NCBI GenBank assembly: GCA_902785065.1
Contig: CACZXH010000017.1
Span: forward strand, 40,428 to 95,254
Length of the DNA: 54,827 bases
Direction: 5' to 3'
Origin: an uncultured Bacteroidia bacterium
GTDB taxonomy: Bacteria; Bacteroidota; Bacteroidia; Bacteroidales; UBA932
In this document: positions 18,337 to 44,111 of the stretch, in pieces
Layout: every line of letters begins with the position of its first letter
Numbering within the stretch: position 1 is the stretch's first letter
The notes under the pieces: model-generated
Databases searched by the model: none
What the model saw: the letters and a program-made list of their open reading frames with translations, nothing else
Told to the model about the DNA's origin: nothing
Position numbers and translations under genes: made by a program

Positions 18337-18354
18337 AAAAAAATTGCAAAAATA

Positions 18355-18385
18355 TTTGGAGATTCAGATTTTTGCCGTATCTTTG
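18355..18385 (+). promoter_or_regulatory. Promoter of the truncated tRNA-Gly gene
   Basis: TTTG (18355-18358), a 19-bp spacer and TATCTTTG (18378-18385) form a full Bacteroidetes promoter, about 36 bp upstream of the tRNA 5' end. The promoter of the broken tRNA gene is thus intact. Confidence 0.7.
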
Positions 18386-18421
18386 CAGTCCCGTTCCACG
18401 AGAACGAGTCTTTGAAATACT

Positions 18422-18446
18422 GCGGAAATAGCTCAGTTGGTAGAGC
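18422..18446 (+). pseudogene. 5' part of a split tRNA-Gly gene
   Basis: The 25 nt starting GCGGAAATAGCTCAG and ending GGTAGAGC are the acceptor 5' strand and D arm of a Bacteroidales tRNA-Gly. The sequence then changes to CTTTTTTTGTG and no anticodon or T arm follows. The matching 3' end (TTTTCCGC, pairing with GCGGAAA) is at 43969-43992, about 25.5 kb away. The anticodon arm is absent from both ends, so the gene cannot give a mature tRNA by simple joining. Confidence 0.7.
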
Positions 18447-18473
18447 TTTTTTTGTGTCTTAAATCGCCGTTTC

Positions 18474-18508
18474 AGGGCCGTAGATTTAGGATTTCGGCCC
18501 TATTTTTC
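18474..18508 (+). terminator. Terminator-like hairpin after the tRNA 5' part
   Basis: AGGGCC (18474-18479) pairs with GGCCCT (18496-18501), followed by ATTTTT. It would end transcripts from the tRNA promoter. Confidence 0.4.
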
Positions 18509-18595
18509 GGCGAGATTAAGCATGGGTTTTTAGAGTTCAAGTCCAGACCGCGACTCGAATTCTGGGGCTCAACGGATGATTTATGGGCGGTTTTT

Positions 18596-18643
18596 GTTCT
18601 ACCATTGTTCTACCAAATGCTCTTTTTTGACGAATGGTAGAAC
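18596..18643. repeat. Triplet of 9-mer sites, candidate recombinase attachment region
   Basis: GTTCTACCA occurs at 18596-18604 and 18607-18615 (11 bp apart, one helical turn), and its inverse TGGTAGAAC at 18635-18643. Paired direct and inverted short sites beside a tRNA fragment resemble integrase or excisionase binding sites. No coding gene is seen between 18295 and 18659. Confidence 0.45.
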
Positions 18644-18659
18644 AGGTAATCAGTACTCC

Positions 18660-18791
18660 TTATTCTGGCCTGACTGGAAATTCGGTGATTCTGAGGGTCG
18701 TACAGCCGTATGGAATCAACTCGATGTCTGACAGCGGACCCGTTTCCCTGGCTTGATAAGTATGATAATTGATATCGGAAGCGCCCCCATA
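18660..18791 (-). pseudogene. C-terminal remnant of a glycoside hydrolase-like protein
   Basis: Directly after the TAA stop of the GH125 gene, the same reading frame stays open for 43 codons and ends at 18660. It encodes DINYHTYQARETGPLSDIEL followed by IPYGCTTLRITEFPV. The IPYGCTTLRI-x-EFPV ending resembles the C termini of Bacteroidales glycoside hydrolases of the six-hairpin or arabinofuranosidase type; I cannot name the family. There is no start codon or upstream domain, so this looks like the tail of a deleted PUL gene left at the island edge. Confidence 0.5.
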
Positions 18792-20204
18792 TTACTGGAT
18801 GTCAATACTGTTAAGGATTCCCAATTTGCCTCGGTCGATAAGGTCCAGGATCAGTTCCCCGAAAAGGGTATTCTGCCACGCGAACCACGGACGGGTAAAA
18901 CGGGAGGCGTCATCCTTGTGGAAGCTTTCGTGGATGAACCCGGTTCCTGCATCCGTATCCAACAAGGTCTCGATACACCATTTGATCTCGGCATCATCGG
19001 TTGCAGTAAACGCTTTCATCATGATGCTCATGGGCCAGACCATATCATATCCGATATGGGGTCCCCCGATCCCTTCACCCGCTTTCCCTTTGAAAAAGAA
19101 GGGATTATCTTCGCTCCAGACAAATTTCCGGGTGTTCCGGTAAATCTTGTCCCGGAGCGATACGTCCCCCAGGTAGGCCATTGCCAGCAGCGATGGGACG
19201 TTGGCGTCATCCATCAAGAAACGGTTTCCGAACCCGTCCACCTCGAAGGCATAAATCTTTCCATACTTCGGGTGTTTATAAACGGCATATTTTTGTAGCG
19301 CAGCCTCCACTTCCGTCGCCAGAGAGCGGCTGTCCCCGGCCAGTTCCTTCTCCCCGTTGACCGTTTCAAGAATCTCCGCCATCTTTCGTAAAGAACTTAC
19401 TGCAAAGAAGTTGGAAGGAACCAGAAACTCAAAGGTAGTGGCATCGTCCGAAGGACGGAAAGCCGATGCAATGAGCCCTACCGGACTCACCGGGTTTCCC
19501 CAGCCATCGCAGGCCTTGGTATCCAACTGGCGTTCGGTCCGGCGTTGGAAGTGGTAGGGCCCCTTTCCTTCCTTTCGCTGCTGCGTGCGGAGGGTTTTAT
19601 AAATGTTCCTGGCCGCCTGCAGCCAGGTATCATCGAAAACGGACGCATCACCGCTTATCTTCCAATACTCATAAGCAAGACGGACAGGGTAGCACATGGA
19701 ATCAATCTCCCACTTGCGCTCGTGAACATAGGGGTTCATGTCCGTCAGGTCGCTCATCCATTCCCCTCCGGTCGGTCCGTCGTTGAAAGCGTTGGCATAC
19801 GGGTCAATGTTGATAAGACTGAACTGGCAGCGGATGACCCCTTCCAGCAGTTTCCTCAGCGCCGGGTCGTCCCGCATCAGGGAGAGGTAAGGCCAGACCT
19901 GGGCTCCGGAATCCCGGAGCCACATGGCGTGGATGTCTCCGGTATAGACAAAGGTCCGGGGCGTACCGTTTTCATCTTCGCTATAATGGACCGTGGTATC
20001 CAGCGTGTTGGGGAAACAGTTCCGGAACATCCAGCGAAGCTTTGCATTCGACAAAAGGGCTTCTACCTCCACGATTCTGGCCTCGACGGCCTCAGAGGTG
20101 AATAGCCGGTCCTTCGCGGCGGGCCTCCGATCCTGATAAGGTTGGGCCGAAGCGAGAATGGCCACGGTCATAAAAGACAGGCAGAGTAAACTGTTTTTCA
20201 TCAT
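18792..20204 (-). CDS. GH125 exo-alpha-1,6-mannosidase
   Basis: A 470-residue secreted (alpha/alpha)6-barrel enzyme of family GH125, which releases alpha-1,6-linked mannose from the non-reducing end of mannan or N-glycan cores by inversion. The family hallmark GDIHAMWLRDSGAQVWPY lies near residues 89-106, with NDGPTGGEW near 145, HIGYDMVWPMSIMM near 395, and the GFIHESFHKDD block with the probable catalytic base Glu near residue 425. A signal peptide (LLCLSFMTVAILASAQ) directs it to the periplasm. It is the last gene of the PUL operon, 6 bp after the GH92 gene, matching the GH76/GH92/GH125 set known from Bacteroides alpha-mannan loci. Confidence 0.92.
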   Translation of the reverse strand: MMKNSLLCLSFMTVAILASAQPYQDRRPAAKDRLFTSEAVEARIVEVEALLSNAKLRWMFRNCFPNTLDTTVHYSEDENGTPRTFVYTGDIHAMWLRDSGAQVWPYLSLMRDDPALRKLLEGVIRCQFSLINIDPYANAFNDGPTGGEWMSDLTDMNPYVHERKWEIDSMCYPVRLAYEYWKISGDASVFDDTWLQAARNIYKTLRTQQRKEGKGPYHFQRRTERQLDTKACDGWGNPVSPVGLIASAFRPSDDATTFEFLVPSNFFAVSSLRKMAEILETVNGEKELAGDSRSLATEVEAALQKYAVYKHPKYGKIYAFEVDGFGNRFLMDDANVPSLLAMAYLGDVSLRDKIYRNTRKFVWSEDNPFFFKGKAGEGIGGPHIGYDMVWPMSIMMKAFTATDDAEIKWCIETLLDTDAGTGFIHESFHKDDASRFTRPWFAWQNTLFGELILDLIDRGKLGILNSIDIQ

Positions 20205-20210
20205 TTTTCT

Positions 20211-22442
20211 TTATCGGCTTAAGGAATACGGGCGGTCTTCCGGCCGGGTCCCGCGGAGGAAGGACGGCTTGTCTGAAAGGGTAAAGCGGAGCTTGGCGCC
20301 GTGGAGGAGGTCGTCATGCCGGATATAATTGTGCTGCCAGACCCGTCCGTTGAGGCGGAGTTTCTCTACATACACTTTCTCCTCAGCGTTTCCGGGCGCT
20401 TCAATATGGACATCGCCTCCGGGGAGGTGCAGGACAGCCTTCTCAAAGAGCGGAGACCCCAGCGCATATTCTCCGCTGCCCGGGCATACCGGATAGAACC
20501 CCAGGGCCGAGAAAACATACCAGGCCGATGTCTGGCCATTATCTTCGTCGCCGCAGTAGCCGTCGGCCCAGGGACCGTAGAATTTCCCCATCACTTCCCG
20601 CACACGCGCCTGCGTCTTCCACGGCTGGGAGCACCAGTCGTACAGGTACAGCATGTGCTGGATGGGTTGGTTCCCATGGGCATAGTTTCCCATGCCCATC
20701 ACCGTCATCTCAATGATTTCATGGATCGGACGGCCATAGTAGCTGTCATCGTATTTGGGCGGCATCTGGAATACCGTATCCAGTTGGGCCGCAAAAGTTT
20801 CCGGCCCGCCCATCAGGCCGATAAGGCCTTCAACGTCGTGGAACACGCTCCATGTGTAGTGCAACGAGTTCCCTTCCGTGAAGTCTCCGCCCCATTTCAA
20901 GGGAGAGAAGGGCCTGGAGAAACGGCCGTCGGCCTTCCGGCCGTTCATGAGCCTGAATTCCGAATCATACAGATTCCGGTAATTCAGCGCAGCATGCCGG
21001 TAAGGGGCGAGTTCCTCCTCCGTCTTGCCCAGGGCCTGGCCCAACTGCCAGATACACCAGTCGTCATAGGCGTATTCCAGTGTGCGTGCCGCACTTTCGT
21101 TGATCCCTACATCGCAGGGCACGTAACCCAGGGAATCGTAGTATTGCCAGCCCAGACGACCGGAAGAGGAAACCCTCGGATGCACCGCATGCGCCCCATG
21201 GGTAACCGCTTCCCAGAGCTCATCGATATCCTGGCAAGGGATTCCCTTCAGGAAAGCATCGGCGACCACGGAGGCACTGTTGTTCCCCACCATGCACCCC
21301 CGGTGTCCCGGCGACGCCCATTCCGGCAGAAAACCGCTCTCCCGGAAATCGTTTACAAGTCCTGCCTGCACCCGGGCCGATGTTTCCGGATACACCAGGT
21401 TCAACAGCGGGAAAAGGCTGCGGAAGGTGTCCCAGAAGCCGGTATCCGTGAAGAAATAGCCTTTTTCGATGCGGCCGTTATGCGGACTGTAATGCACGCG
21501 TTCTCCCGCTTCGTTGATTTCGGACAGGTCGCGTGGAAACAGCAGGCAACGGTACAGGCAGCTGTAGAATGTGCGCAAGTTGTCCAGATTCCCGTCCGTC
21601 ACCTCGATTCGGCCCAGCAGGGCATTCCACTCATCGCGGGCTGCGTTCCGCACGGCCTCGAAGCCTCCTGTCACCTCCAAGAGGTTCCGTTCGGCCTGCT
21701 CCGCCGAAATGAACGACGAGGCCACCTGCAGGTTCACCTGCTGACCCCGAACGGTCCTAAAGCCGACAAGAGCCACATCCTCCCGGGCCGGGCAGGCTTC
21801 GAAAGGCGTATCGGAACGGACAATGAACCAGTTGCGGAAGCCGTCGGCTACTCCGCCGTGGTTGTGGACGGTATAGCCCCTGATCGTGTACGCATCAACC
21901 AGGGATACCTTCCCGCCCTCGAAAGCATCCACGACCAGGTAGGACTGCCCTTCGGGATAGGTAAGCCTGAAGGCCGCGGCATGGGACGTTGGGGTAAGTT
22001 CCGCCGTAACGTCATGGTCAGCCAGATACACACTATAGTAATAAGGGGTTGCAACTTCTGCCTTGTGGGAAAACCAGCTGGCTCGCGCGTCCTGGTCATA
22101 TACTGGACCGGTTGTCACCGGCATGAGGGAGAAAGCGCCATAGTCGTTGATCCAGGGGCTGGGTTGATGTGTCTGCTTGAGCCCACGGATATGCGTTGCA
22201 TCATAACGGTAGGTCCAGCCGTCTCCGTTCGAGCCAGTCTGCGGCGTCCAGAAATCGGCGCCCCATGGCACGGCAACCGCCGGATAGGTATTGCCGGTGG
22301 AGAGTTCGTAAGTGGAGGCTGTCCCTACCAGGGTGTTGACATAAGACACCGGATCCGGACGCTCTGGCCTGGCCACGGCGGAAACCGTTGCCAGCCAAGT
22401 CAGGAACAGCACCCCGTAAATCTTTATTGTACGCTTGCTCAT
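20211..22442 (-). CDS. GH92 alpha-mannosidase
   Basis: A 743-residue secreted enzyme of GH92, calcium-dependent exo-acting alpha-mannosidases that trim mostly alpha-1,2 or alpha-1,3 mannose side chains. The N terminus has a signal peptide and the beta-sandwich start DPVSYVNTLVGTAS; the catalytic (alpha/alpha)6 domain has GYFFTDTGFWDTFRSLFPLL and, near residue 630, GDEDNGQTSAWYVFSALGFY. The start overlaps the preceding gene by 4 bp. Linkage specificity cannot be told from the sequence. Confidence 0.93.
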   Translation of the reverse strand: MSKRTIKIYGVLFLTWLATVSAVARPERPDPVSYVNTLVGTASTYELSTGNTYPAVAVPWGADFWTPQTGSNGDGWTYRYDATHIRGLKQTHQPSPWINDYGAFSLMPVTTGPVYDQDARASWFSHKAEVATPYYYSVYLADHDVTAELTPTSHAAAFRLTYPEGQSYLVVDAFEGGKVSLVDAYTIRGYTVHNHGGVADGFRNWFIVRSDTPFEACPAREDVALVGFRTVRGQQVNLQVASSFISAEQAERNLLEVTGGFEAVRNAARDEWNALLGRIEVTDGNLDNLRTFYSCLYRCLLFPRDLSEINEAGERVHYSPHNGRIEKGYFFTDTGFWDTFRSLFPLLNLVYPETSARVQAGLVNDFRESGFLPEWASPGHRGCMVGNNSASVVADAFLKGIPCQDIDELWEAVTHGAHAVHPRVSSSGRLGWQYYDSLGYVPCDVGINESAARTLEYAYDDWCIWQLGQALGKTEEELAPYRHAALNYRNLYDSEFRLMNGRKADGRFSRPFSPLKWGGDFTEGNSLHYTWSVFHDVEGLIGLMGGPETFAAQLDTVFQMPPKYDDSYYGRPIHEIIEMTVMGMGNYAHGNQPIQHMLYLYDWCSQPWKTQARVREVMGKFYGPWADGYCGDEDNGQTSAWYVFSALGFYPVCPGSGEYALGSPLFEKAVLHLPGGDVHIEAPGNAEEKVYVEKLRLNGRVWQHNYIRHDDLLHGAKLRFTLSDKPSFLRGTRPEDRPYSLSR

Positions 22443-24877
22443 TTCGTTTCCAAGAGTTTGATGAAATAACCTCCCACCACACTCCGGGCCTTGAATCCCC
22501 GGTAATTGGGCTTGTCGGTGAACACCCAGTCGGACATGGGAACACGGTCCATGGTTTCATTCTCAAAACGCCAGACCGGTTCGATGAAGGATTCGAAGGT
22601 GGCCTTGTCGGAAGCCATGGTGGCGGTCCACATAATCCAGTCCAACTTGGTATAGGTCTCCCGGTTGTCCAGTGGAAGCCCGTATTCGTTGAAGCGGGAC
22701 GGATAGTAGGCGATCTCCTTCCGAGCGACACTGTCCGGGAAGATGTCCAGTCCCAACAGCTTGTCCCAGACCAGATTGTATTTCTGGCTCCAGGTTCCTT
22801 CCTTGTCGAAAGTAAGCCGGTAGTGGTCGCCGTCGTCGGCCATCTCCACCCATCGGGAGGCCATCTCGCGGGCGGCTGCCGTATATTCATCGGCAATGGC
22901 CTGCCTGCCCAGCAGCCCGGCCATGTATCCATAGGAGGCAACGCCCAGGATGGCCTTGATGGAAAGGTTGGTATTATGCGCAAAATGGCCGGCAAAGTCA
23001 TCCGTACAAAGCTGGTTTTCCGGATCGAGTCCAAACTGGCGAAGGTAATCGGCCCAGACCGTGAGGGTTTCCCAATGTCTCTCCGCATAGTCGGCATTCC
23101 CCTCGAACTTGCAGACCGCCGCAGTGAGAATGATCATGTTGCCACCCTCCTCCACCGGCATGTCGCCGCCGTACGTCTGCCCGTTGGCCATGGGATAGGT
23201 GCCCACATCGTGCGCGGGGAAAGGCTTCGTCCAGCGTCCGCTTTCCGCGTAATAGTAGATGTGGTTCATCAAGTATTCCGCAAACTTGGGATTATAGTAA
23301 AGGAACAGCGGTGCCGACGGATAGGTGATGTCCACCGTGCCGATGGACCCGTTGGAATTGTTCTCCTTGGAAAGCCAGAGAATCGCTCCGTCCGGGGCCT
23401 GCACCAACTTGTGGGCGTGGATGGACTGGCGGTACGCGAGGGCGCACAGCTCGGCATATTTCCGGCCGCCGGCTTTTTCGCAGTCGGCCATCAGGCGGCG
23501 GTCGAAGTCGTCGCAGCGTCGGAGGAGTTCCGCATAATCCGCTTCCGCCGCCGCGAACATGTCCTGGATGGTCTTGTCCCCGCTGCGGTTCCAATAGGGC
23601 CGGAGGTTCTCCCCGAAATACTGGATGGAATACAGGTCGTCGTAGCCGATGAGGACATGATCCTCCTGTCCGACATCCACCTTTCTCACGAGGGCCATCC
23701 GGCCGGCAAGGTTCTCTCCGGAAGTGGCGGAGAAGGGGATACCGCCGAGGAACGCCTCACGAAGCGCCAGGCCGGTTCCGGTTCCCACCTGACCGTCCTT
23801 TGCGTGGAGATAGAAGTAGCCCCAGTCAATCCGGAGGTCGTCCCCGCGCTTGGCCAGGACCTGCTGTGCCTGGCTGCCGCACTTCAGCCAGACGCCCTGC
23901 CCGTCGGTGTAGGCTTCGCTGCGGGAAGGCTGTCCCGCCTGGTCGGTCGCCCAGCGGGGGGAGGCTTCCAGGTACAGCTGGACGTCGTGCTTCCCGCCAT
24001 CCCGGGATACTACCTTGTAGCTGATATAGTTCACCGGGCGGGAGATGAGATCCAGGTCGTCCAGGAAGAGCGGGGCGGTGAAACTGAGTTCCAGCTCCAC
24101 GGGGCCGCAGCGGAAGCCATAATGCGTCCGGGTAGCCTGGACGTCGGCATAGAGCTGCTCCGCGGCCTGCTCAAGGGCCGTATGGGGCTCGTTCTGAAGC
24201 ATCAGCCCCATGTCCAGATAAGCCAGTCCGCCGGTGTCCGTGCAGGTGGCGGCAATCAGGTTCTTTCCCTCCCGGAGCACCCCGTCGGGAACAGGAGTAA
24301 AGGCATTCGTATGGCACTCGTGCCCCGTATTGAGCACCTCCACGCCGTTGATGTAGAAAACGGCGTCGTCATCGTTGCTGTAGGCGAGATACACCCGCTT
24401 GCCGCTGAGATCCTCGGACACCTCCACTTCCCGGCGCACCCATACCTTTTCAGTCTGCCAGGGCGTAAGGGAAGTCAGGTAGCCCGGGGTTCCAAAGGCG
24501 GCAGGGCCCTCGTTCCAGCCGGACGGCCGGTAGGATTCGGCGAACCAGTCGCCCTTGGGCTCGGAGAAGGTGTAAGCACCCCGCCAGGGCGTTTCCGCCG
24601 CCAGAGGGGCCAACGGACTCAGCTCCACTTCCTCCATGCCGAGGAAACGGTACACTTCGCCGTCCACCTTCAAGGCACCGATGAGCGGGAATTCCGCCCC
24701 GGTCCAATGCTTCACCGGCCCGTCGTACAGGTGGTCGTACATGCTCCAGGCACTGGTGTACGGGTCGATGGATACAAGCGGATAGGCCGGAGCGCGCAGG
24801 GCGTTGCGCTGCACCGTCTGCGTCTGGCATGCAGTCAGGGTGAACGCAAGGATAAGGATCAGTCTGAATTGTTTCAT
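22439..24877 (-). CDS. DUF4965 (glutaminase-A-like) lipoprotein
   Basis: An 812-residue secreted protein whose C-terminal half matches the DUF4965/DUF1793 glutaminase-like family, an (alpha/alpha)6-type domain with NNSNGSIGTVDITYPSAPLF, HDVGTYPMANGQTYGGDMPV and EEGGNMIILTAAV. The N-terminal half has a lipoprotein signal (ILAFTLTAC), the family start ALRAPAYPLVSIDPYTSAWS, and an inserted jelly-roll domain (about residues 90-220) like the sugar-binding domain of GH2 enzymes. Proteins of this family recur in Bacteroidales PULs beside GH92; activity is unproven and a glycosidase role is an inference. The start is ATG 24877 because it overlaps the upstream stop (TAATG). Confidence 0.82.
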   Translation of the reverse strand: MKQFRLILILAFTLTACQTQTVQRNALRAPAYPLVSIDPYTSAWSMYDHLYDGPVKHWTGAEFPLIGALKVDGEVYRFLGMEEVELSPLAPLAAETPWRGAYTFSEPKGDWFAESYRPSGWNEGPAAFGTPGYLTSLTPWQTEKVWVRREVEVSEDLSGKRVYLAYSNDDDAVFYINGVEVLNTGHECHTNAFTPVPDGVLREGKNLIAATCTDTGGLAYLDMGLMLQNEPHTALEQAAEQLYADVQATRTHYGFRCGPVELELSFTAPLFLDDLDLISRPVNYISYKVVSRDGGKHDVQLYLEASPRWATDQAGQPSRSEAYTDGQGVWLKCGSQAQQVLAKRGDDLRIDWGYFYLHAKDGQVGTGTGLALREAFLGGIPFSATSGENLAGRMALVRKVDVGQEDHVLIGYDDLYSIQYFGENLRPYWNRSGDKTIQDMFAAAEADYAELLRRCDDFDRRLMADCEKAGGRKYAELCALAYRQSIHAHKLVQAPDGAILWLSKENNSNGSIGTVDITYPSAPLFLYYNPKFAEYLMNHIYYYAESGRWTKPFPAHDVGTYPMANGQTYGGDMPVEEGGNMIILTAAVCKFEGNADYAERHWETLTVWADYLRQFGLDPENQLCTDDFAGHFAHNTNLSIKAILGVASYGYMAGLLGRQAIADEYTAAAREMASRWVEMADDGDHYRLTFDKEGTWSQKYNLVWDKLLGLDIFPDSVARKEIAYYPSRFNEYGLPLDNRETYTKLDWIMWTATMASDKATFESFIEPVWRFENETMDRVPMSDWVFTDKPNYRGFKARSVVGGYFIKLLETK

Positions 24878-27033: not shown

Positions 27034-27120
27034 TCTGTAAAGATAATAAAAAGGGAGGATGAAATCTGGTAACTCCATCCTCCCTCCTCCCAAAATCAAC
27101 CAACTAACCAACCATTTATA

Positions 27121-27924: not shown

Positions 27925-27930
27925 ATCTGA

Positions 27931-29952: not shown

Positions 29953-29967
29953 AATGCTTTCAATGAA

Positions 29968-33138: not shown

Positions 33139-33163
33139 AGATTAGTATTGGTTTGTATAAATT

Positions 33164-34639: not shown

Positions 34640-34651
34640 CGGAAGGAATGA

Positions 34652-36498
34652 TTAGTCAAGCGTAACGTCGTAGATCACGAGCTTCTGCTCACCATCGCGA
34701 GTCTCGCCCTTGTGGACGCCGATGCACAGGACGATGTCCTTGCCGGAGAACTCGCTCAGGTCATAACGGAAGGTGGCATACTTGTCGGGACTGCCCTTGG
34801 AGCCGTCCTCGTGGATGAACTTCCAGCAGCCGTTGTCAACGGCTTCCGCGGACACGGCATTGTTCTCGTACGGGGCAAGGGCCTTGGCGGTGCCGTCCAA
34901 GGTAATGGCGGTCACGCGGAAGACGGTCGGATCCGTGGAGGAGAAGTTGCGCACGCGGAAAGCGATATGGTCGTTGGCGTCAGAAATGCTGAACTTCGAG
35001 AACCAGAAGGACTCTGGCAGCTCATAGTCGGGGTCCACACCGCCGCGGGTCTTGATCGTGAAGCCATTGCCCACGAACGGCTCGGTATCCTTGTTCACAT
35101 ACATGAAGCCCCACTGGGAAGCGATGTGGTTCTCGCACTCATACATCCAGGCTTTGTACTGCGGGCCCCAGTTGTCGCGGCCCCACACCTGGACACCGTC
35201 GGGCGTATAGGCGGTGAAATGGCGGTTCGGGTTGGGCATCATGGAACCGAGCTGCTCCAGCGTAAGATGCCAGCCGGGCAGGGCAGGGACCTCGGTACCG
35301 GTCAGGTGGTCGTCACCCTTTACATATTCGGGCGCGAAGGTGATATGCTTGAGCGGCACCTGGACCCAGTAGTCGCCAGTCGCCCAGCGGTAGGTACCGA
35401 TGGCAATGGCGATGCGCTTGCCCACATAGGCGGAGAGGTCATACTGGAAGTTCAGGTAATCTCCGCTGGAGAAGCCGTCGGTGTACTCTTTCAGCGCCGT
35501 CTCCGGGAGACGGATGGCTTCGGGATCGTCGGAAGTCATGTCCACGACTACCACGCCGAAGTGCGCGGGACCCTGGTGGGTGCGGGCGTTCACGGTGAGA
35601 TACTTGTTGGAATCGGTGATGTCCTTGATACCATAGATGTAGGTGTCCTGGAAGACCTGGTCCACGGGGTTGTTCTCCTTGTCGGAGTCATCGTTCCGGA
35701 TCCGGAGGGCCATGCCTTCGCCCTGGTTTTCGATGTTGCCTTCCTGTTTCCACTGCGCGGACATGAAGGTGCAGGACCAGTCGGTCAGGCCGCCGCCGCC
35801 CCAGCCGCCGCGGTATTCGTCCATAAACAGGAACGGTGCCTGCTGCTGGAGGTCATCGAGGGACTTGCCGCGGAAGAGCTCCTTGCCGCCCATGCCGATG
35901 TCACCGAGATCCACCTTGTGGTTTACGAAGTCATCCTTGCCAATCTGCCGGATGATGGTCATCGCACCGGTCTTGCGGAGCGTGAGGGTGTAATCCTGGA
36001 TGGTCAGGTCGGTGAAGGAGAACACGCCGTCTGCACCGGTCACCAGCTCCTTGGAACCGATGGAGGCCGTGACGCCTGCAAACGGGACGTTGCCGTGGCT
36101 GGCATCCAGCACGCGGCCGGTAATCACGGCGTCCGACACTTCAAGGACCGGGTTCAACGTGACTTTCCCGCCGGTGAAATGGCTGGCGGGTACGGTCATC
36201 GCCACGGTTGCGTAGCCGGCTTTGGCGAACTGTGCCACGACTGTTTTCGTGATCTTGACATCCAAGGAGTACGTACCGTCGGAGGATGTGGTCGTCGACG
36301 CGTCAGACCCTTCCACCGTGACGGAGACAGCGGCAATCCGGTCACCCCCCGTGTCGGTTACGACACCGGAGATGGTTCCCGACCCCCAGTCTTCCTGCGC
36401 CGCCTCTTCATTGTCGGTGCAGGAGGGCAGCATTGCGGCGCCCGCCATGGCGAGGGCTGCAACGGCAAAAGCCTTGAGAAGAGATTTGGATTTGTTCA
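34652..36498 (-). CDS. Surface lipoprotein with carboxypeptidase-regulatory-like domains
   Basis: A 614-residue lipoprotein (signal VAALAMAGAAMLPSC). Residues about 38-120 and 125-205 are two Ig-like carboxypeptidase-regulatory domains (GTISGVVTDTGGDRIAAVSV and ITGRVLDASHGNVPFAGVTA). The remaining 400 residues show two repeated beta-rich segments ending in similar phrases (FQYDLSAYVGKRIAIAIGTYR and FRYDLSEFSGKDIVLCIGVHK), each typical of a carbohydrate-binding beta-sandwich. No catalytic motif is recognised. In this PUL position it is probably a glycan-binding surface protein, though an enzyme of unknown family is possible. The long upstream frame to 36703 precedes the signal peptide and is not used. 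Confidence 0.7.
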
Positions 36499-36525
36499 TT
36501 GTTTTAGGATGAATGATAATTGGTT

Positions 36526-38343
36526 TTATTGAATGGTTGACAGATATTTCCGAGTCTGTTCCGGGCGGTAAGCCATCCGAACACGCCAGATCAGTTCCTG
36601 GGCGGATACGGCCTGGAAACGGTCCGGCAACTGCTCCAGGCAGGAAGCGGCCGCATCGGAGGACCGGTTTCCGGCGAAATCGCTCCATGCATGGACGCTG
36701 CACAGGGAGAAGGATGCCGCTCCGGAAGGCTCACGCTCTTTCATCTTGTCGGAGACTTCCTTCGGATTGCCGCCCCCGACGGATGTCGGCAGTCCTTTCC
36801 ACAGGGCATACCGGGCGGTAATGACCGGGATGTCATAGCCCTGGGAATTGGTGCACCAGCGGATCTCCCCGTCTCCTCCGGTATAGGGGGAATACTGGAT
36901 GACGACGATCCCTTCCAGCTGGTCGTTGGCATCTACGAAGGCCTGGTACGCTTCCATCGCCTCCTGGCTCAAGGCCCGCCAGGCGATGAGCTGCAGTACC
37001 TTGATTCGGTGCTGGCGCATGTGCACCCCCGTCCGCGCGGCAATCACTGCGAGGGAAGCGGCGCGGCGGGAGGTCTTCTGCGCGTAGGTATCGGCATAGA
37101 AATACCCTCCGCCGAAGGTCTCCATCAGGGTATTGTCGTCTCCGCAAAGGTTCACGAGGTAGGAGTAACGGTCAGGAGAGAGCTCGGCGAGCGCCTGAGC
37201 GCCCAGGGTATAGCTCATCTGCACGTCATGGCGGGAGGGAAGGGCATAGAAGTCCTTCTCGAAGCCGTCTCCCATGACCCACTGGTAGTTATCTCCGTCG
37301 GTGAGGACGAAGGAAATGAAATTCTTCTTGAGATGATAGTCTATTGTACGGGGATGGATGACCGGGGCGAGAGACTTGGACTGGCGTTCCCGGGCGCCGG
37401 CGCTGGTAAGGGAGTGGTTGTAACTCCAGTCGGCGGCCAGCATCAGGTGCCCGTACCGGGAGATTTTTCCCACGAACTCGTCTTCCCCGAAAGGTCCACC
37501 CTCCCAGCCGAGGACGGGGGAATCGGGCTGAAGCCAGGCCAGGACTTCATCCATCAATCCGTTGTTCATGCCACCCTCCACGCTGTCCCGTTCGCGGCAC
37601 AGGTTCAACACGAATAAGTGGTGGCAGATGGAAAAGTTGCGGAGTTCCGCCGTGTTCACGGGCATGAGGACCAGGGCGTCGTTCCGGCACGCATCCCTGA
37701 ATTCCTCCCAGGCGTCCCGGGTAGTCTTCCTACGTGCATCGTAACGCATCGTGTAACCGGCCTCGATGAAACGCTCCTCCAGGGAGACATCCACGATGAC
37801 TGCCTGGAACACATGGGCAGCCACCGAGGCGACGACCGAGCTCTCCGGGTTGGAGGCTACATCGCAAAGGACGTACCCGCCGGAAAAGAGATCCTTCACC
37901 TGGACCGGGGCTCCGTCAAAGGGGCCGTATTCGTTGAAGCAGAGTTCGAACGCCGTCTGGCGTCCCACCTCCCTGCCCAGGAAAGCCCTGGCACGGTTGT
38001 AGGAATCCGAGTTGACGTCCAGCCAGACCGCCACATCCGACCGGCCTTCCTGGAAAGCGCCGTTCACGAGGCCTGACACGGATTCGCAAAGCAGCTGGTA
38101 GGGCAGACCGCCGTCAAACATGTCCACGCAAACCCAATAACGCTCGGGAATGCGGGAGTCCTCGGGCATGAAAAACTGTCCTTCATCTCCAATAGGATCG
38201 TGGATATCCGTGTACACGACAGCATCGGCCTTGGAGGGAGGAACCAACTCGTCTGTTCCGTTTTCCTTTGTACAAGTAACGCAAGCCGTCAGTAAACTGG
38301 CGGACACAAGCAGGTGGACTTTTCTGTAAACCGGACGGATCAT
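36526..38343 (-). CDS. GxGYxYP-type putative glycoside hydrolase lipoprotein
   Basis: A 605-residue lipoprotein (LLVSASLLTACVTC). It resembles the GxGYxYP putative glycoside hydrolase family: PVLGWEGGPFGEDEFV near residue 280, FVLTDGDNYQWVMGDGF near 341, and FGGGYFYADTYA near 405, the last matching the motif except Ala for Pro. Members occur in Bacteroidales PULs; their reaction has not been defined as far as I know. It is the first gene of the mannan PUL, about 20 bp after the probable transcription start of the -7 box at 38366-38373, and is divergent from the trans-membrane regulator. Confidence 0.72.
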   Translation of the reverse strand: MIRPVYRKVHLLVSASLLTACVTCTKENGTDELVPPSKADAVVYTDIHDPIGDEGQFFMPEDSRIPERYWVCVDMFDGGLPYQLLCESVSGLVNGAFQEGRSDVAVWLDVNSDSYNRARAFLGREVGRQTAFELCFNEYGPFDGAPVQVKDLFSGGYVLCDVASNPESSVVASVAAHVFQAVIVDVSLEERFIEAGYTMRYDARRKTTRDAWEEFRDACRNDALVLMPVNTAELRNFSICHHLFVLNLCRERDSVEGGMNNGLMDEVLAWLQPDSPVLGWEGGPFGEDEFVGKISRYGHLMLAADWSYNHSLTSAGARERQSKSLAPVIHPRTIDYHLKKNFISFVLTDGDNYQWVMGDGFEKDFYALPSRHDVQMSYTLGAQALAELSPDRYSYLVNLCGDDNTLMETFGGGYFYADTYAQKTSRRAASLAVIAARTGVHMRQHRIKVLQLIAWRALSQEAMEAYQAFVDANDQLEGIVVIQYSPYTGGDGEIRWCTNSQGYDIPVITARYALWKGLPTSVGGGNPKEVSDKMKEREPSGAASFSLCSVHAWSDFAGNRSSDAAASCLEQLPDRFQAVSAQELIWRVRMAYRPEQTRKYLSTIQ

Positions 38344-38365
38344 GGTTATCGTTTCGTGTTGACTG

Positions 38366-38373
38366 CAAATATA
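38366..38373 (-). promoter_or_regulatory. -7 box of the mannan PUL operon
   Basis: TATATTTG on the minus strand. No TTTG lies at the expected -33 distance; that position is instead taken by the palindrome GGTTAATTAACC (38395-38406), as expected for a promoter that needs an activator. Confidence 0.55.
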
Positions 38374-38394
38374 GCGGGAGACTGTTAAGAATAG

Positions 38395-38437
38395 GGTTAA
38401 TTAACCATTATTTAAAAAATATTTTGGGTTAACCATT
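38395..38437. promoter_or_regulatory. Paired GGTTAA/TTAACC operator sites
   Basis: A perfect 12-bp palindrome GGTTAATTAACC (38395-38406) and a related palindrome GGTTAACC (38427-38434) lie between the divergent promoters. Both are followed by ATT, so TTAACCATT repeats directly 28 bp apart (38401-38409 and 38429-38437). The likely binder is the SARP-like regulator encoded next. Confidence 0.6.
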
Positions 38438-38454
38438 GAAAAATAATACCTTTG
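38423..38454 (+). promoter_or_regulatory. Promoter of the trans-membrane regulator gene
   Basis: TTTG (38423-38426), a 20-bp spacer and TACCTTTG (38447-38454) match the consensus exactly. The ATG at 38461 is only 7 nt after the box, so the mRNA is nearly leaderless. The -33 element touches one operator half-site, suggesting autoregulation. Confidence 0.7.
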
Positions 38455-38460
38455 TCCGCC

Positions 38461-40923
38461 ATGAAGATAAAAGCCATTCTTGTTATCCTTGCGTTCATCT
38501 CATGCTGGACGGCTGTCGGGCAGGGACTCCATTTCCGCGGTTCCGAATATCCCATAGAAGAACGCACAAGCATGAATATTCCCCTGCGAAAAGCATTTGC
38601 CGACTCATTGGTGATTCGTTTCGACATCGCTTTTTCCCGGGAAAGGGACAATGGATACATTTTCAGGATAGGACGCATTCCCGATGAAAACAATATCGGG
38701 GGAATTTGCCTTTTCATGGACAGCATGGGAGAAGAGTACCAATTCAGGGTCATTTGGGAAGGGCATCGTTTCATATCCGACATGTCTATCTCCAGATCAG
38801 ACGTGGTTGAAGGCGAATGGCTGCCCGTTCGATTCGTTTTGACGCCGAAAAAGGACAGCGTTTATTTGCAGATCGGTCGGCATGGCGTGGGCGGTACTAT
38901 GGACTTGCAAGGAACGGTAAACAGCATTCTTTGCCTGGGTAAGAATGAATACCGGATCGATGTACCGAGTTTCGACATGCGTAACCTGTCCGTCAAGATG
39001 GACCAGAAAGTGGCCGCATTCCCTTTGGAGGAAGACTCCGGCAATACGGCATCCAGTTCCCTGCCCGGGTACAAGGCAAAAATAAGCAACCCTGAGTGGC
39101 TGAACCGTGACAGGCTCCGATGGAAGAAGCGCTTCAGCCAAAGCAGCGCGCAGTTCCTGACCTGTGGCTATGACGATTCGCGGCACGAAATCTATCTGAT
39201 TTCGCGAGATTCGCTGCATCGGATCCCTCTTGGAAAGGGAATGGAATTCCACGAAAAGACTTCGACCCCGAATCCCCTTCATACCTTCCTCGGAGCCAGT
39301 TTTCCGCAGGACGGCGGATACTACTGTTACGAAGCCTATTATGGCGACGAAGTCCCGCTGGAGTATCCCACACTGGCATTTCTGGATTCCAGCCTCACTT
39401 GGAACATCTTGTCTTCCGGACAATTCCCGACCCAACTCCATCACCATAATCTCATTTCGGACACGCTTAGGCACCGCCACTACCTGTACGGCGGTTTCGG
39501 CAACCGTCTCTACAACGGTCGTTTTTATTGCCTGGATGATTCCGGGCATTGGCATCCTGCGCCCGAACTCACCGGAGACGAAGTTTGGCCCCGCTACTTC
39601 GCTTCGGCAGGATGGGACTCGGTCTACGACAAGATTTACTTGTTCGGCGGAATGGGGAATCAAAGCGGAGATCATATCGTGGGCCGTCAATATCTATACG
39701 ATTTCTTTGTCATTGACCCGGAAACCTTTGAGGCAGAAAAAGTCTGGACACTTCCCAAACAGAAGATAAACAAAGTGCCGGTAAGGAATATGGTCCTCCC
39801 CGGGGACTCGTATTTCTATACGCTCATGTATCCGGAGAGCTATACCGAAACTGAACTGCAGTTATACCGGTTCTCCCTGCAAGACGGGCAGATGTCCCTG
39901 TACGCCGATGCCATTCCCATGAATTCCGACCGGATTCTTACCAATGCGAATCTCTACTATGACACGCAGTTGCAGATACTCATCGCCCTTTTGGAAGAAT
40001 CCACGAATGACATCGATTCAAGAGTAACGGTCTATACGCTGTCTTTCCCCCCCTTGAAACGGAACCTCTCCACAGTGACCCGGGAACGGATTCGGAAGGG
40101 GACGGTGCTTCTATTCGCTCTCCTCCTTGTGGGGATGACGCTCTATCTGATAAAACGGAAGATCCGGCATTCCCGGAGGCTCAAAGCCAGTATTCCAGCC
40201 GCTGCGCTTCAGCCTTTGAAACCTGTTGCCAATTCCCTCTCCCTATTCGGTGTTTTTGCCGCTTATGATGCAGAAGGGAACGAAATCTCGGCCGAATTTC
40301 CGGAAAAAATACGCCAACTTCTGCTTCTGATCCTTCTGGGAATGAAAGACGGGGTCAGTTCCAAAAACCTGAGGTCGCTGCTCTGGCCGGACAAGGATGA
40401 AATGCATGCCAAAAACCTTCGGGGCGTAACCATGAATAAACTCCGGAAGGCGCTTTCCCTGATGGATGGGGTCTCGATCGAGTTTAAAGACGGTCATTTC
40501 GTCCTTCAGTACCGGGAACCTTTCAGTTGTGATTATCTGAGATTCCAGCAAATACTGCAGAGCGAACAACCCGACATGGATACACTCATCCGTCTGCTTT
40601 CCCGCGGGAAATTTCTTCTGGGCGAGACAGATCCGATGTTTGATTACATGAAAGACAGCTTCGACAGGCAAGTACAACCGGTCATGCAAAGGGAAATGAA
40701 GCGCAGGGTGGGCATGAAGGAATACAACAATGCCATTCTGTGTGCCGATATCCTTTTCCTGGTAGACCCCCTGGACGATGAAGCCCTCGCCGGCAAGATC
40801 CGGGCGCTCCAACTCCTGGGGCACGAGGACGATGCCCGCACATGCTACCAGCAGTTCATTTCCAGGCACAAGCGTGAATATGCAGAGGAATACGGTACCG
40901 CCTACGACAGCCTTTCCATATAA
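38461..40923 (+). CDS. One-component trans-membrane regulator: Kelch-like sensor with SARP-type DNA-binding domain
   Basis: An 820-residue protein. Signal peptide about 1-20; a LamG/concanavalin-like domain about 22-190; a Kelch-like beta-propeller about 215-500 (RHYLYGGFGNRLYN, DKIYLFGGMGNQ); one membrane helix about 548-566 (VLLFALLLVGMTLYLI); then a cytoplasmic winged helix of the OmpR/SARP type (about 597-685: LLLLILLGMKDGVSSKNLRS, LLWPDKDEMHAKNLRGVTMN, then KLRKAL) and a C-terminal TPR-like region resembling a bacterial transcriptional activator domain (about 690-815). It would bind a glycan in the periplasm and activate DNA directly, with no kinase or anti-sigma step, as a functional analogue of SusR or hybrid two-component sensors. 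It is divergent from the mannan PUL and next to paired palindromes. The open frame starts at TTG 38452, but ATG 38461 gives the signal peptide. Confidence 0.83.
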   Translation: MKIKAILVILAFISCWTAVGQGLHFRGSEYPIEERTSMNIPLRKAFADSLVIRFDIAFSRERDNGYIFRIGRIPDENNIGGICLFMDSMGEEYQFRVIWEGHRFISDMSISRSDVVEGEWLPVRFVLTPKKDSVYLQIGRHGVGGTMDLQGTVNSILCLGKNEYRIDVPSFDMRNLSVKMDQKVAAFPLEEDSGNTASSSLPGYKAKISNPEWLNRDRLRWKKRFSQSSAQFLTCGYDDSRHEIYLISRDSLHRIPLGKGMEFHEKTSTPNPLHTFLGASFPQDGGYYCYEAYYGDEVPLEYPTLAFLDSSLTWNILSSGQFPTQLHHHNLISDTLRHRHYLYGGFGNRLYNGRFYCLDDSGHWHPAPELTGDEVWPRYFASAGWDSVYDKIYLFGGMGNQSGDHIVGRQYLYDFFVIDPETFEAEKVWTLPKQKINKVPVRNMVLPGDSYFYTLMYPESYTETELQLYRFSLQDGQMSLYADAIPMNSDRILTNANLYYDTQLQILIALLEESTNDIDSRVTVYTLSFPPLKRNLSTVTRERIRKGTVLLFALLLVGMTLYLIKRKIRHSRRLKASIPAAALQPLKPVANSLSLFGVFAAYDAEGNEISAEFPEKIRQLLLLILLGMKDGVSSKNLRSLLWPDKDEMHAKNLRGVTMNKLRKALSLMDGVSIEFKDGHFVLQYREPFSCDYLRFQQILQSEQPDMDTLIRLLSRGKFLLGETDPMFDYMKDSFDRQVQPVMQREMKRRVGMKEYNNAILCADILFLVDPLDDEALAGKIRALQLLGHEDDARTCYQQFISRHKREYAEEYGTAYDSLSI

Positions 40924-40943
40924 GCCAACCGTAAGCGAGGGTT

Positions 40944-41576
40944 TTACCTGGCATAGCCGACCGGATTGTTCAGCAGCGGAGTCTGCGTCTCGTCCAGACG
41001 AAGCAGTTCCTTGATGGCCTGGGTATCCATCGACATCCTGGGACGGGTGACAAGACCTGCACCTGCACAGAACAGGTTGATGTTCTCTGAAACGATGCCG
41101 GCATCCACGCCCATCACGACCGTCGAACGCTCGTCGCTTCCGCCGAATTTCTTCTCATCGGCGACCATCAGCAGAATGACCGGGGCCGTCTTGACCCAGC
41201 CCTGACGGCCGGCGACGAGATCCCTGTGGTCTCCCTGGACAACCGGACGCAGGCTGTTTTCCGCATTCAGATACTCGCAGACACCCTCTGCCGTGAAGAC
41301 AAAGACGCGGATCTCCTGTTTGTTGCTCGCCGTAGGGGAAGTCAGCTTGCCGTTCTCCCGGTTGACACCGATGGCAGCGAAAAGCAGGTTGGAAAGGTCC
41401 TGGTCGCTGAGCATCCGCTCGCTGAACTCCGTTCCCGACTGGCGGTTCCAGAGGGTCTCAAGCGTAGATTTGCCCCCCGTCTTCTCGGGGGCGGGAAGAG
41501 AAATGTTCTGGGCCAGGCACATTCCAGCACCCAGCAACGTCGCGATGACGATTAAAGACAACTTATTCATATTCAA
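40944..41576 (-). CDS. Secreted nitroreductase-like protein (SagB type)
   Basis: A 210-residue protein of the nitroreductase superfamily, close to the SagB-type group (LWNRQSGTEFSERMLSDQDL near residues 42-61, MGVDAGIVSENINLFCAGAG near 155). It carries a signal peptide (IVIATLLGAGMCLAQ), unusual for a flavin enzyme and implying a periplasmic location. Such proteins usually bind FMN and reduce small organic molecules; the substrate is unknown. It lies within the island, convergent with the regulator gene (20-bp gap) and 101 bp downstream of the amidohydrolase gene on the same strand, so the two may be co-transcribed. Confidence 0.72.
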   Translation of the reverse strand: MNMNKLSLIVIATLLGAGMCLAQNISLPAPEKTGGKSTLETLWNRQSGTEFSERMLSDQDLSNLLFAAIGVNRENGKLTSPTASNKQEIRVFVFTAEGVCEYLNAENSLRPVVQGDHRDLVAGRQGWVKTAPVILLMVADEKKFGGSDERSTVVMGVDAGIVSENINLFCAGAGLVTRPRMSMDTQAIKELLRLDETQTPLLNNPVGYAR

Positions 41577-41677
41577 TGAGTTTTAAAATGTTTATTTCAG
41601 AGGCAATGCCACCCTGAAAGTGACGTTCGGGTGATGGCTGCTGCCAGGAAAAGTCATAATGGCTAAAAGGAACGCTC

Positions 41678-42781
41678 TCATTTCAGTTTGAAGATTTGCT
41701 CCGCGTTGCCGCGGGCGATGGCATACTTCTGGTCAGCGGTCAGATCGGCCTTGTCCAGGAAGAATCTCAGCGGTTCGTTCTGGATATAAGGGTAGTCCTC
41801 GCTCCAGATGATGTGCTCCGCGCCGAAGAGTTTCACGAAATAGTCCAGCTGCATCTCGGACATAATGCCGGAAGGCGTGTACCAGATGTTATCTTTATAA
41901 TAATCAGAAACTTTCTTCTTGAGTCCGGTCTTTTCCTGGTCCAGCATATAGTCCATCCGCTCCAGGAAGGCGGGGATGTCCTCGCCCCAGTGGCCGGTGA
42001 CGAACTTGAGGTTCGGGAGTTTGTCGAAAATGCCGCTCAGCACCATCCTGGCTACGTGGATGCCCACGTCAATGTGCCAACCGAATCCTGCGCTGCCGAG
42101 TTCCGCCCCCACGATGGGGCTGTAGCTGTCGGACATATAGTAGTAGTCGATAATCTCGCTTTTCACAAAGTCCGGATGCCAATAAACGGGTACGTCCAGC
42201 TCGGCCGCCTTCTCGAAGATGGGGAAGAATTCCGGCTCGTCGTAAAAACGGCCTTTGTACTGGCCGGTGAGCAACACACCCACAAAGCCCAGTTCCTTTA
42301 CGGTACGCTCCAGTTCGGCGGCGGCCGCTTCGGGATCGGCCATCGGAAGGGTGGCCATCGCACGGAAGCGGTCGGGATGCTCCGCTACGCGGGCCGCCAG
42401 GATGTCATTGGCCTCCCGGCAGATCCGGACCGCCTCGTCGGCAGGGACTACATCGTCCACCGGGGCTGTATAAGAAAGGATCTGCACGCCGATACCCAGG
42501 CTGTCCATATGCGGAAGGCGCTTCTTCTCGATATCCAGCAGATCCTGTCCAATCAGGCGCCTGGTACTGAAAAACTTCATTGCCTCGGCCATCTTTCCCG
42601 TGGGCTTCGGCTTCAGGTAAGCATATTTCGCATTCGCGTCAATGATTTCCTGCGAGGTAATGTGTTCCTCGACGGTGATGAGCGGAAGAGCATTGTAATC
42701 CATTTCGTGGGTGCTTTTATCTGCACAGGAGATGGCCATCATGGTCATCCCTGCAGCAAGTATTGTCCTAACTGTATTCAT
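41678..42781 (-). CDS. Amidohydrolase-family lipoprotein (Amidohydro_2, ACMSD-like)
   Basis: A 367-residue TIM-barrel metal-dependent hydrolase of the amidohydrolase-2 family, which includes ACMSD and gamma-resorcylate decarboxylases. A signal with lipobox (MTMMAISC) places it outside the cytoplasm, which is uncommon for the family. Metal-site residues visible are EEH near the start (ITVEEHITS), PVYWHPDF, FVTGHWGEDIP and the Asp in IIWSEDYPY. The substrate is unknown; a non-oxidative decarboxylase or hydrolase acting on an aromatic or lactone compound is likely. It is divergent from an AraC-type gene, the probable regulator. Confidence 0.8.
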   Translation of the reverse strand: MNTVRTILAAGMTMMAISCADKSTHEMDYNALPLITVEEHITSQEIIDANAKYAYLKPKPTGKMAEAMKFFSTRRLIGQDLLDIEKKRLPHMDSLGIGVQILSYTAPVDDVVPADEAVRICREANDILAARVAEHPDRFRAMATLPMADPEAAAAELERTVKELGFVGVLLTGQYKGRFYDEPEFFPIFEKAAELDVPVYWHPDFVKSEIIDYYYMSDSYSPIVGAELGSAGFGWHIDVGIHVARMVLSGIFDKLPNLKFVTGHWGEDIPAFLERMDYMLDQEKTGLKKKVSDYYKDNIWYTPSGIMSEMQLDYFVKLFGAEHIIWSEDYPYIQNEPLRFFLDKADLTADQKYAIARGNAEQIFKLK

Positions 42782-42789
42782 ATCTGCTG

Positions 42790-42797
42790 CAAAGATA
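42790..42797 (-). promoter_or_regulatory. -7 promoter box of the amidohydrolase gene
   Basis: TATCTTTG on the minus strand, 8 bp before the start codon at 42781. No clear -33 element is seen, consistent with activator control. Confidence 0.45.
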
Positions 42798-42866
42798 GAT
42801 GGATCCCTTTGCACTTGCGTTACCGATTAAAAGGAAAGAATTACCATTTTGTAAGTTATTAATCGT

Positions 42867-42874
42867 ATATTTGC
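42867..42874 (+). promoter_or_regulatory. -7 promoter box of the AraC gene
   Basis: TATATTTG ends 3 nt before the ATG at 42878, so transcription would start on or next to the start codon. Confidence 0.5.
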
Positions 42875-42877
42875 CCT

Positions 42878-43774
42878 ATGATGGCAAAACAAGGTAATCA
42901 AAGCGTAACGAAGCTTACAGACAGTTTCTGGCAGGACCATCGCTCCGACAGCGGCTTCCAGTATGTGAGCGAGCGGCTCATCCAGACACGTGGCGTCGGT
43001 GAAGGATACAGTGTACAGTTCGGCTCAGGGGATCCTTTCCAACTGAAGAACTTGCATATCGCCCTTGTCAAAAGCGGTAGCGTGGACATCAGCGTCAACC
43101 TTCTCCCCCGCCACTATGAAGCGGGTGATATGATGGTGATCACTCCGGACAGCATCATGACGCAGCAGGGGCGCAGCCCGGACTTCGATATGCAGATCAT
43201 CCAGTTGAGCCCGGCATTCCTGTCCGATGTCATGCACGGAGAGGTCCCGCCGCTTTTTATCCATCGGATGCAGGATTTCACCCTCCGGCCTTCCGATGCG
43301 GACCGGACCGCTTTCACTTTTCTTTCCGACAGTCTCTGGGCGCTCCTTCACGCAGCAACCCTCTCCGATGAAGCCATCCGCGCTTGCTGTGAATCCATCC
43401 TGCAGTATCTTCGGACCCTGATCCTTTTCCAGCAGTCAAGAACCCTCGCCGGCCAGACAAGAAGCCTCAGCATATTCAATCAGTTTATCGCACTCATCAA
43501 CGTCCATTGTGCCCAGCACCATGATGTGGGGTTCTATGCCGGAGAAATCGGTCTCAGCCGGGAACACCTGAGCAGTCTGATCTCAAAGGCAAGCGGTCGC
43601 ACAGCCAGTACCTGGATAGACGAAGCGCTTCTTTCGCGCGCTAAAATCCTGCTCCGGCACACTGATCTCACCTCGGCCGAAATATCCGACCGGCTCAATT
43701 TCCCTGCACCCTCTCATTTTTCCCGATTCTTCAAACGCCATATGGGCATGACACCGAAAGTGTATCGTCATTAA
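42878..43774 (+). CDS. AraC-family transcriptional regulator
   Basis: A 298-residue regulator: an N-terminal cupin-like sensing domain (about residues 30-140, with HYEAGDMMVITPDSIM) and a C-terminal AraC helix-turn-helix pair (about 195-298; VGFYAGEIGLSREHLSSLIS, SAEISDRLNFPAPSHFSRFF and the terminal GMTPKVYRH). It is similar in layout to the AraC protein at 48404-49336. It is divergent from the amidohydrolase/nitroreductase pair and probably activates it. ATGs at 42878 and 42881 both fit; the promoter box implies a leaderless or nearly leaderless mRNA. It is the last gene of the island before the tRNA-Gly 3' end. Confidence 0.88.
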   Translation: MMAKQGNQSVTKLTDSFWQDHRSDSGFQYVSERLIQTRGVGEGYSVQFGSGDPFQLKNLHIALVKSGSVDISVNLLPRHYEAGDMMVITPDSIMTQQGRSPDFDMQIIQLSPAFLSDVMHGEVPPLFIHRMQDFTLRPSDADRTAFTFLSDSLWALLHAATLSDEAIRACCESILQYLRTLILFQQSRTLAGQTRSLSIFNQFIALINVHCAQHHDVGFYAGEIGLSREHLSSLISKASGRTASTWIDEALLSRAKILLRHTDLTSAEISDRLNFPAPSHFSRFFKRHMGMTPKVYRH

Positions 43775-43968
43775 AACCTACCCGTCGGTCTTCTCCAAGA
43801 GAGTGACCTGGTGTTTGACGTCCATAGGTGGCGTCTTTTCCCTGTATGATGGCCGTTCAAGTCGCTTTCCCTATACGTCCTGAAAAGCCACGAAAGTTTC
43901 TCCTATGTTTCACCCGATGTCTTTTCGGTTTCTTCTAAATCGCTGATTTTCAATGTATTACGAGATAT
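43775..43968. other. Non-coding right end of the island
   Basis: About 190 bp without a supported gene. Near its end TCTAAATCGCTGATTTTCA resembles TCTTAAATCGCCGTTTCA at the left end (about 18458), a possible imperfect terminal repeat. ACGAGA (43960-43965) can pair with TCTCGT in the tRNA remnant, imitating a T stem. Confidence 0.35.
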
Positions 43969-43992
43969 AGTTCGAGTCTCGTTTTCCGCTCC
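43969..43992 (+). pseudogene. 3' part of the split tRNA-Gly gene
   Basis: AGTTCGAGTCTCG followed by TTTTCCGCTCC is the T loop, T stem 3' strand and acceptor 3' strand of a Bacteroidales tRNA-Gly. TTTCCGC pairs exactly with GCGGAAA at 18422. The upstream T-stem strand and anticodon arm are missing, replaced by ACGAGATAT. A perfect terminator follows directly, as expected for the native end of the gene. Confidence 0.7.
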
Positions 43993-44024
43993 AAACGCCT
44001 CGCAGTCCTGCGGGGCGTTTTTGT
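43993..44024 (+). terminator. Terminator of the tRNA-Gly gene
   Basis: ACGCC-T-CGCA and TGCG-G-GGCGT form a strong stem with a 4-nt loop, followed by TTTTTG. It lies just after the tRNA 3' end and supports reading this as the original tRNA locus. Confidence 0.8.
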
Positions 44025-44111
44025 TTGCGGGCCGGGGACAATGTGTTTCCAGGAGGCCGGGAACCGAGCACTTTGTATGTTGTTGATAATCAGACACGTA
44101 TAGCACATCTA

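Follow-up and report, generated by a model that had tools for sequence, protein, structure and literature searches.

Tycheposons are tRNA-anchored units with nutrient-related cargo, a description that also suits the subject of this report, a 25.5-kb island that carries a putative alpha-mannan polysaccharide utilization locus (PUL) and separates the two halves of a tRNA-Gly gene. The island lies in a stretch of 54,827 nucleotides (hereafter the window) from an uncultured Bacteroidia bacterium, contig CACZXH010000017.1, positions 40,428 to 95,254. Tycheposons differ from the units described here in that they belong to another phylum and in that the complete units here are without a recombinase. 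A further parallel is offered by the tRNA-anchored genomic islands of Islander (PMC4383910), which target the T-arm or 3' end of a tRNA gene and leave a displaced 3' fragment of it on the same strand; the same features are seen here, with a regenerated tRNA in a relative's locus (L137). Unlike those islands, the unit in the window has no integrase and its regenerated tRNA is damaged, and Islander itself rejects tRNA-anchored candidates that lack an integrase (PMC4383910). Cis-mobilizable elements (CIMEs; PMC5704250) likewise have no integrase or transfer genes between their attachment (att) sites and stand in tandem with others at one target. The present units depart from CIMEs in having, in about 22 arms, one common right arm beside mostly unrelated cargo, and the attL of the window is broken. 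Integrative and conjugative or mobilizable elements (ICEs and IMEs) have their own integrase and mobilisation genes, which the island in the window does not.

In its GH76, GH92, GH125 and SusC/D genes the cargo resembles alpha-mannan PULs, although here they are the cargo of a recently moving tRNA-anchored unit. The locus is known in kind, being a tRNA-anchored island that is CIME-like in having no integrase, as both terms are defined in PMC4383910 and PMC5704250. What stands out is the PUL as recently moved cargo, the mostly unrelated units with one arm and the damaged anchor. No array like this was recognised in listings of the literature on Bacteroid PULs, ICEs, integrases and tRNA-site islands, which is not proof that none has been described.

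The interrupted tRNA-Gly gene

The original prediction held that a tRNA-Gly gene in the window is divided into two halves on the same strand, about 25.5 kb apart, with an intact promoter at the 5' half, an intact terminator at the 3' half and the anticodon arm missing from both, and all of this is borne out. The 5' half, nucleotides 1-25 of tRNA-Gly(GCC) and the stump of attL, had been placed correctly at 18422-18446 (+ strand; GCGGAAATAGCTCAGTTGGTAGAGC). The 3' half, a displaced fragment of 24 nt (attR; + strand; GTTCGAGTCTCGTTTTCCGCTCCA), lies at 43970-43993, the earlier 43969-43992 having been one base early; the A at 43969 also agrees with the tRNA sequence. The native leader or promoter region (18330-18421, + strand) is conserved before intact tRNA-Gly(GCC) genes, at 99% over 117 bases in G418 and 100% over 99 bases in G003 (G and L numbers denote genomes and loci), and the native terminator (43994-44024, + strand) is of a type found directly 3' of tRNA-Gly in five of 26 intact loci, including L093, which is the L118 contig. 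When loci were retrieved with the window's leader (n=30), 28 matched the 5' region, namely 26 with an intact tRNA-Gly(GCC), one with a tRNA-Gly(TCC) and the window itself. With 26 of 28 intact, the halves in the window are not a chance resemblance. The intact gene has 76 nt: between the 25 nt and the 24 nt that are retained in the window it has a further 27 nt, which include the GCC anticodon. The window's own bin comprises 50 contigs with 2.74 Mb and is 95.2% complete; it contains the 5' half once exactly and once more, within tRNA-Gly(TCC), with a single mismatch, and a search allowing up to three mismatches found the 3' half only once, at 43970-43993. No tRNA was predicted in the window by ARAGORN or by Rfam at the gathering threshold. 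A split or trans-spliced tRNA was ruled out, since neither half holds the anticodon arm.

The uninterrupted gene that the original prediction expected in relatives without the PUL exists, and its presence in L118 and G003 identifies the 25.5 kb as an insertion at tRNA-Gly(GCC). The best case is L118 (RGIG3197, goat reticulum), where an intact tRNA-Gly(GCC) is followed by the window's type of terminator and there is no PUL. This locus aligns to 15044-18446 of the window (86.6%), to 43969-44039 (94.4%) and, with the right-hand flank directly 3' of its intact gene, to 44231-46666 (96.2% over 2.4 kb). In G003 the left flank (85%) and intact gene are followed by sequence matching 44223-44411 (90.5%) and 46949-49953 (95.9%).

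A site filled by the same island is found in L137 (RUG13263), where an intact tRNA-Gly(GCC) is followed by a terminator (AACCTCCAGGATTCGTCTTGGAGG) with its T-run and then by the island. The L137 leader is identical to that of the window at 361 of 372 aligned bases, with one 46-base gap, and its island is 99.58% identical over 9.1 kb, its contig stopping short of the island's right end; 71 bases at about 18498-18568 are present in the window and G087 and absent from L137. Compared with L137, the window is without exactly 75 bp, comprising tRNA nt 26-76 and the terminator stem, and the island begins at the T-run of the island-borne terminator (18447-18453, + strand), which follows the terminator stem in both L137 and G087. 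The first base of the island is the same in G087, where that terminator and a 26-nt 3' fragment of tRNA-Gly precede it. Together these two loci indicate that a tRNA 3' end and a terminator are part of the island itself, and that the break in the window (GGTAGAGC-TTTTTTTGTG) arose in a second event or is due to faulty assembly. The claim that insertion itself destroyed the tRNA is thus contradicted by L137, where the same island stands behind an intact tRNA and terminator.

The locus is best explained as a canonical tRNA-anchored island that was later damaged, for which the probability is put at about 0.85. The displaced 3' fragment lies on the same strand at the far end and the target is uninterrupted in relatives; a regenerated tRNA at the near end is absent from the window and present in L137. 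In the same way attR is present and attL broken in the window, whereas the left att site of L137 is intact on both sides. The right-hand 24 nt (attR) are what an island that regenerates its tRNA normally displaces from the 3' end of the gene. The comparison shows that an element bringing its own terminator and a copy of the 3' end of tRNA-Gly(GCC) entered the tRNA-Gly gene behind the VWA gene by recombination in the tRNA T-arm; the tRNA was regenerated at the left, and the original 3' 24 nt were moved, together with the native terminator, to the right end.

Recent movement of the PUL is evident from its distribution. When the rpoB region of the own genome is compared, G003, G418 and G172 share 97.1-97.5% identity with it, whereas the values for G061, G087 and G149 are 83.9%, 83.6-83.7% and 83.8%. 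PUL identity reaches 99.65% over 12.0 kb (from 18788) in G061 and 99.48% over 18.5 kb in G087; in G149 it is 96.9% over 7.1 kb, a segment (window 36959-44033) that takes in the AraC gene, right arm and fragment. Identities of 96.9-99.65% where the rpoB region is at about 84% indicate that the PUL moved recently. The left 404 bases of the island match 32 of 400 genomes, among which are neither the close relatives G003, G418 and G172 nor G149, where only the right part of the island is seen. Island and flank stand on one contig in L137 and G087. The named relatives are mainly metagenome-assembled genomes of Bacteroidales, several of them labelled rumen or ruminant-gut. Here the ends of a whole putative alpha-mannan PUL (25.5 kb) are defined, its site is known both empty and filled beside an intact tRNA, and nearly identical copies occur across an rpoB-region identity of about 84%, which makes one route by which PULs pass between uncultured gut Bacteroidales open to testing.

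Deletion or assembly fault at the left junction

Set beside L137, the window plainly lacks 75 bp at the left junction, where the 25-nt stump runs straight into the T-run of the terminator, and the odds between a real loss and an assembly fault are about even. Both possibilities overlap with the reading of a canonical island later damaged. It has just under an even chance that the gap is an assembly fault at a tRNA shared by co-occurring species, in which case the tRNA-Gly(GCC) of the cell would be intact, as in L137. This would agree with a survey of 61 genomes of the genus (own included), in which this tRNA-Gly type was found in 44 and the 54 rows comprised 45 GCC and nine CCC; the GCC gene is hardly ever present more than once, its 45 rows falling in 44 of the 61 genomes and G009 alone having two. 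It would also agree with codon use, GGC and GGT making up 80% of Gly codons in ten left-flank open reading frames (ORFs) and GGY accounting for 93% in the own rpoB, where six relatives have 91-98%. A single-copy GCC gene that serves most Gly codons makes a very recent loss or an artefact likelier. Moreover, tRNA-Gly lies less than 400 bp from a contig end in eight of the 30 loci counted (15 more GCC rows had no locus). Against an assembly fault, the contig is gapless through both junctions and no shared k-mer accounts for the join.

A real, very recent deletion of 75 bp, after which the cell would use another GCC copy or superwobble by tRNA-Gly(UCC), is tentatively placed somewhat further below even odds. 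The stretch and its surroundings fold strongly as single-stranded DNA (z -5.65), the two breakpoints share GAG, and superwobble of this kind has been described in Mycoplasma mycoides (PMC10853795). A deletion is also consistent with the own bin, where no tRNA-Gly(GCC) was found among 34 tRNA-family hits (33 given an anticodon by ARAGORN, one partial without), the sole tRNA-Gly being TCC. However, tRNA-His and tRNA-Trp were not found there either, so the tRNA set of the bin is incomplete, and five of 25 other genomes with at least 90% completeness and at most 5% contamination also had no hit for GCC. The absence of GCC therefore says little and was rejected as proof of loss. Nor does the own rpoB show a codon shift relative to the six relatives. 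This case cautions that faulty assembly or a minor secondary loss can lie behind a tRNA that looks destroyed in a draft genome.

The bare geometry of the halves would also suit a single step in which the incoming island took the place of the middle of the tRNA, but this is made very improbable by the islands of L137 and G087, which carry the tRNA 3' end and terminator, the window's island starting at that very T-run. A chimeric contig, with the PUL misjoined to this locus, is conceivable in a 50-contig assembly when the same PUL is present in other genomes; it is scarcely credible, as it would take two misjoins at one gene, the same leader and island are independently linked in L137, and the right junction consists of the standard arm and fragment.

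Right arms and a candidate recombinase

The displaced fragment is preceded by a conserved right arm (43829-43969, + strand), for which a consensus was built and which occurs in 29 of 400 genomes. Window positions 43829-43992 match 35 places in these genomes, own included (E <= 1e-8), and 32 of the 35 matches extend into the tRNA fragment. In all, 27 tRNA-Gly 3' fragments were tabulated in 23 distinct loci (26 sources are given, of which L219 repeats L195, and L118 and L137 have no fragment). An arm of this family accompanies 25 of the 27, the exceptions being the second fragment of L119 and that of L196, a proportion that is no census because most loci were fetched via an arm match. The last 80 bp of 22 arms are on average 85% identical. 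The cargo beside them (700 bp, present for 17 of the 22) gave BLAST matches in five of 136 pairs, and among nine complete units it is shared in two pairs, L120/L126 and L206/L207; the stretch 18577-20781 of L119 recurs at a different array position in L126 (96.4%). Cargo of the other units includes Fic, TonB receptor/FecR/sigma factor, and Na/Ca and Na/Pi transporter genes. The tRNA-Gly site is a hotspot with mostly unrelated cargo.

None of the nine complete armed units (window, L119, L120, L126, L195, L200, L202, L206 and L207) gave an integrase in a phmmer search with 23 queries, and one of 16 partial units did (L202); integrases near tRNA-Gly were detected by a search of this kind in L046, L090/L122 and L108. 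That units lacking an integrase, and for the most part unrelated in cargo, have one right arm in common suggests mobilisation in trans, and island finders that demand an integrase would miss such units. The PUL unit may be, or have been, moved by a tRNA-Gly-specific tyrosine recombinase encoded elsewhere. The best candidate, judged from sequence, is a putative tRNA-Gly-specific recombinase of G149, a 496-aa integrase (Arm-DNA-bind_5, Phage_int_SAM_5 and Phage_integrase domains) that starts 0.2 kb 3' of an intact tRNA-Gly. Its left arm agrees with the right-arm consensus at 34 of 42 positions, with none of 500 mononucleotide shuffles as good, and has the top score of 14 integrase loci tested. 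Homologues (E <= 1e-30) were found in 16 of the 400 genomes, and 14 of their 17 loci have a tRNA nearby (five Gly, five Leu, four Met). The five PF00589 hits of the own bin, on C5, C10, C41 and C45 with none on C17, were rejected as movers.

Several results weigh against this account. No integrase was found in the island (14 ORFs by Pfam; phmmer with the 23 queries) or on contig C17, no homologue of the G149 integrase in the own bin (E <= 1e-30), and no circle or excision of the island was seen. That the motif is not confined to tRNA-Gly is clear from the integrases L222, L226 and L230 at tRNA-Leu or tRNA-Met genes, which also match the arm consensus (0/500 shuffles each); L221 (9/500), L233, L234, L235 and L046, which are tRNA-Gly integrases, do not match it well. 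The left end of the window's island does not match the consensus in local alignment (162/500 shuffles as good). In addition, no single other contig spans all 25.5 kb, and misbinning may affect the contigs that carry the PUL in G061 and G149.

In a more far-reaching reading, regarded as unlikely, the tRNA-Gly(GCC) of the genus would anchor an array of integrase-less cargo moved in trans, an integron-like trade in nutrient cassettes, and the lineage of the window would have lost its anchor tRNA, shifting GGC/GGU decoding to tRNA-Gly(UCC). Such an array would comprise PULs, transporters and receptors sharing one right arm and tRNA 3' fragment, with a tRNA-Gly-specific integrase resident in some genomes only.

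At the left end of the island a tandem GTTCTACC repeat (18596-18614, + strand) is a possible arm-type site. A pattern fitting both ends, written after both had been viewed, has only two occurrences in the window, at 18596 and 43896. The right arm had no match in plasmid and phage records and the left end no exact match in IMG/VR. Relatives of the tRNA-Gly integrase adjoin tRNA-Leu or tRNA-Met genes in L222, L223, L225, L226, L228-L230, L232 and L236, several of these loci having tandem repeats of about 11 bp before the integrase.

Genes of the island and neighbouring features

Pfam families assign most of the 14 island ORFs, and no relaxase, secretion or integrase family was found among them. 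On the - strand lie genes for a GH125 alpha-mannosidase (18792-20204), a GH92 family protein (20211-22442), a GtaA-like protein with DUF4964, DUF5127 and six-hairpin domains (22439-25051), an ORF with no Pfam or NCBIfam match (24877-27111), a DUF3823 protein (27121-27924), a SusD-like protein (27931-29952), a SusC-like TonB-dependent receptor with Plug and carboxypeptidase-regulatory domains (29968-33138), a GH76 family protein (33164-34639), a CarboxypepD_reg-domain protein (34652-36703) and a GxGYxYP putative glycoside hydrolase (36526-38343). These are followed by an ORF with Kelch-like repeats (38452-40923, + strand; a weak Pfam and no NCBIfam match), a nitroreductase family protein (40944-41576, - strand), an amidohydrolase (41678-42814, - strand) and an AraC-family regulator (42878-43774, + strand). 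By Pfam families the island has the combination expected of an alpha-mannan PUL, a SusC/SusD pair with GH76, GH92 and GH125, the substrate being putative; to judge from these enzyme families, the cargo would allow host use of alpha-mannan. The PUL and the AraC cluster as two separate islands were not supported, given continuous blocks in G087 (18443-37096) and G149 (36959-44033). Between the island end and the GH125 gene, 18667-18785 has short matches in many congeners and reads like the tail of a truncated gene.

A repeat with a short ORF end and a terminator occurs at 44223-44450, 46660-46826 and 54544-54614, and also in L118, L120, L126, L200 and L203; it may mark unit ends. In L087 (G003), at about 1562-1651 and 3' of the intact tRNA-Gly, a CTCCTATTTTACACC motif and a 13-nt piece of tRNA T-arm look like the remains of an earlier element. 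On the minus strand of L211 (G087 C87), 6916-6991 holds an altered tRNA-Gly-like gene, called tRNA-Ala(GGC) by ARAGORN, which may be an assembly error. Two more tRNA-Gly 3' fragments lie 165 bp apart on the minus strand of L217 (G029), at 11065 and 11230; one of them extends into the anticodon arm, and the same contig has an intact tRNA-Gly.

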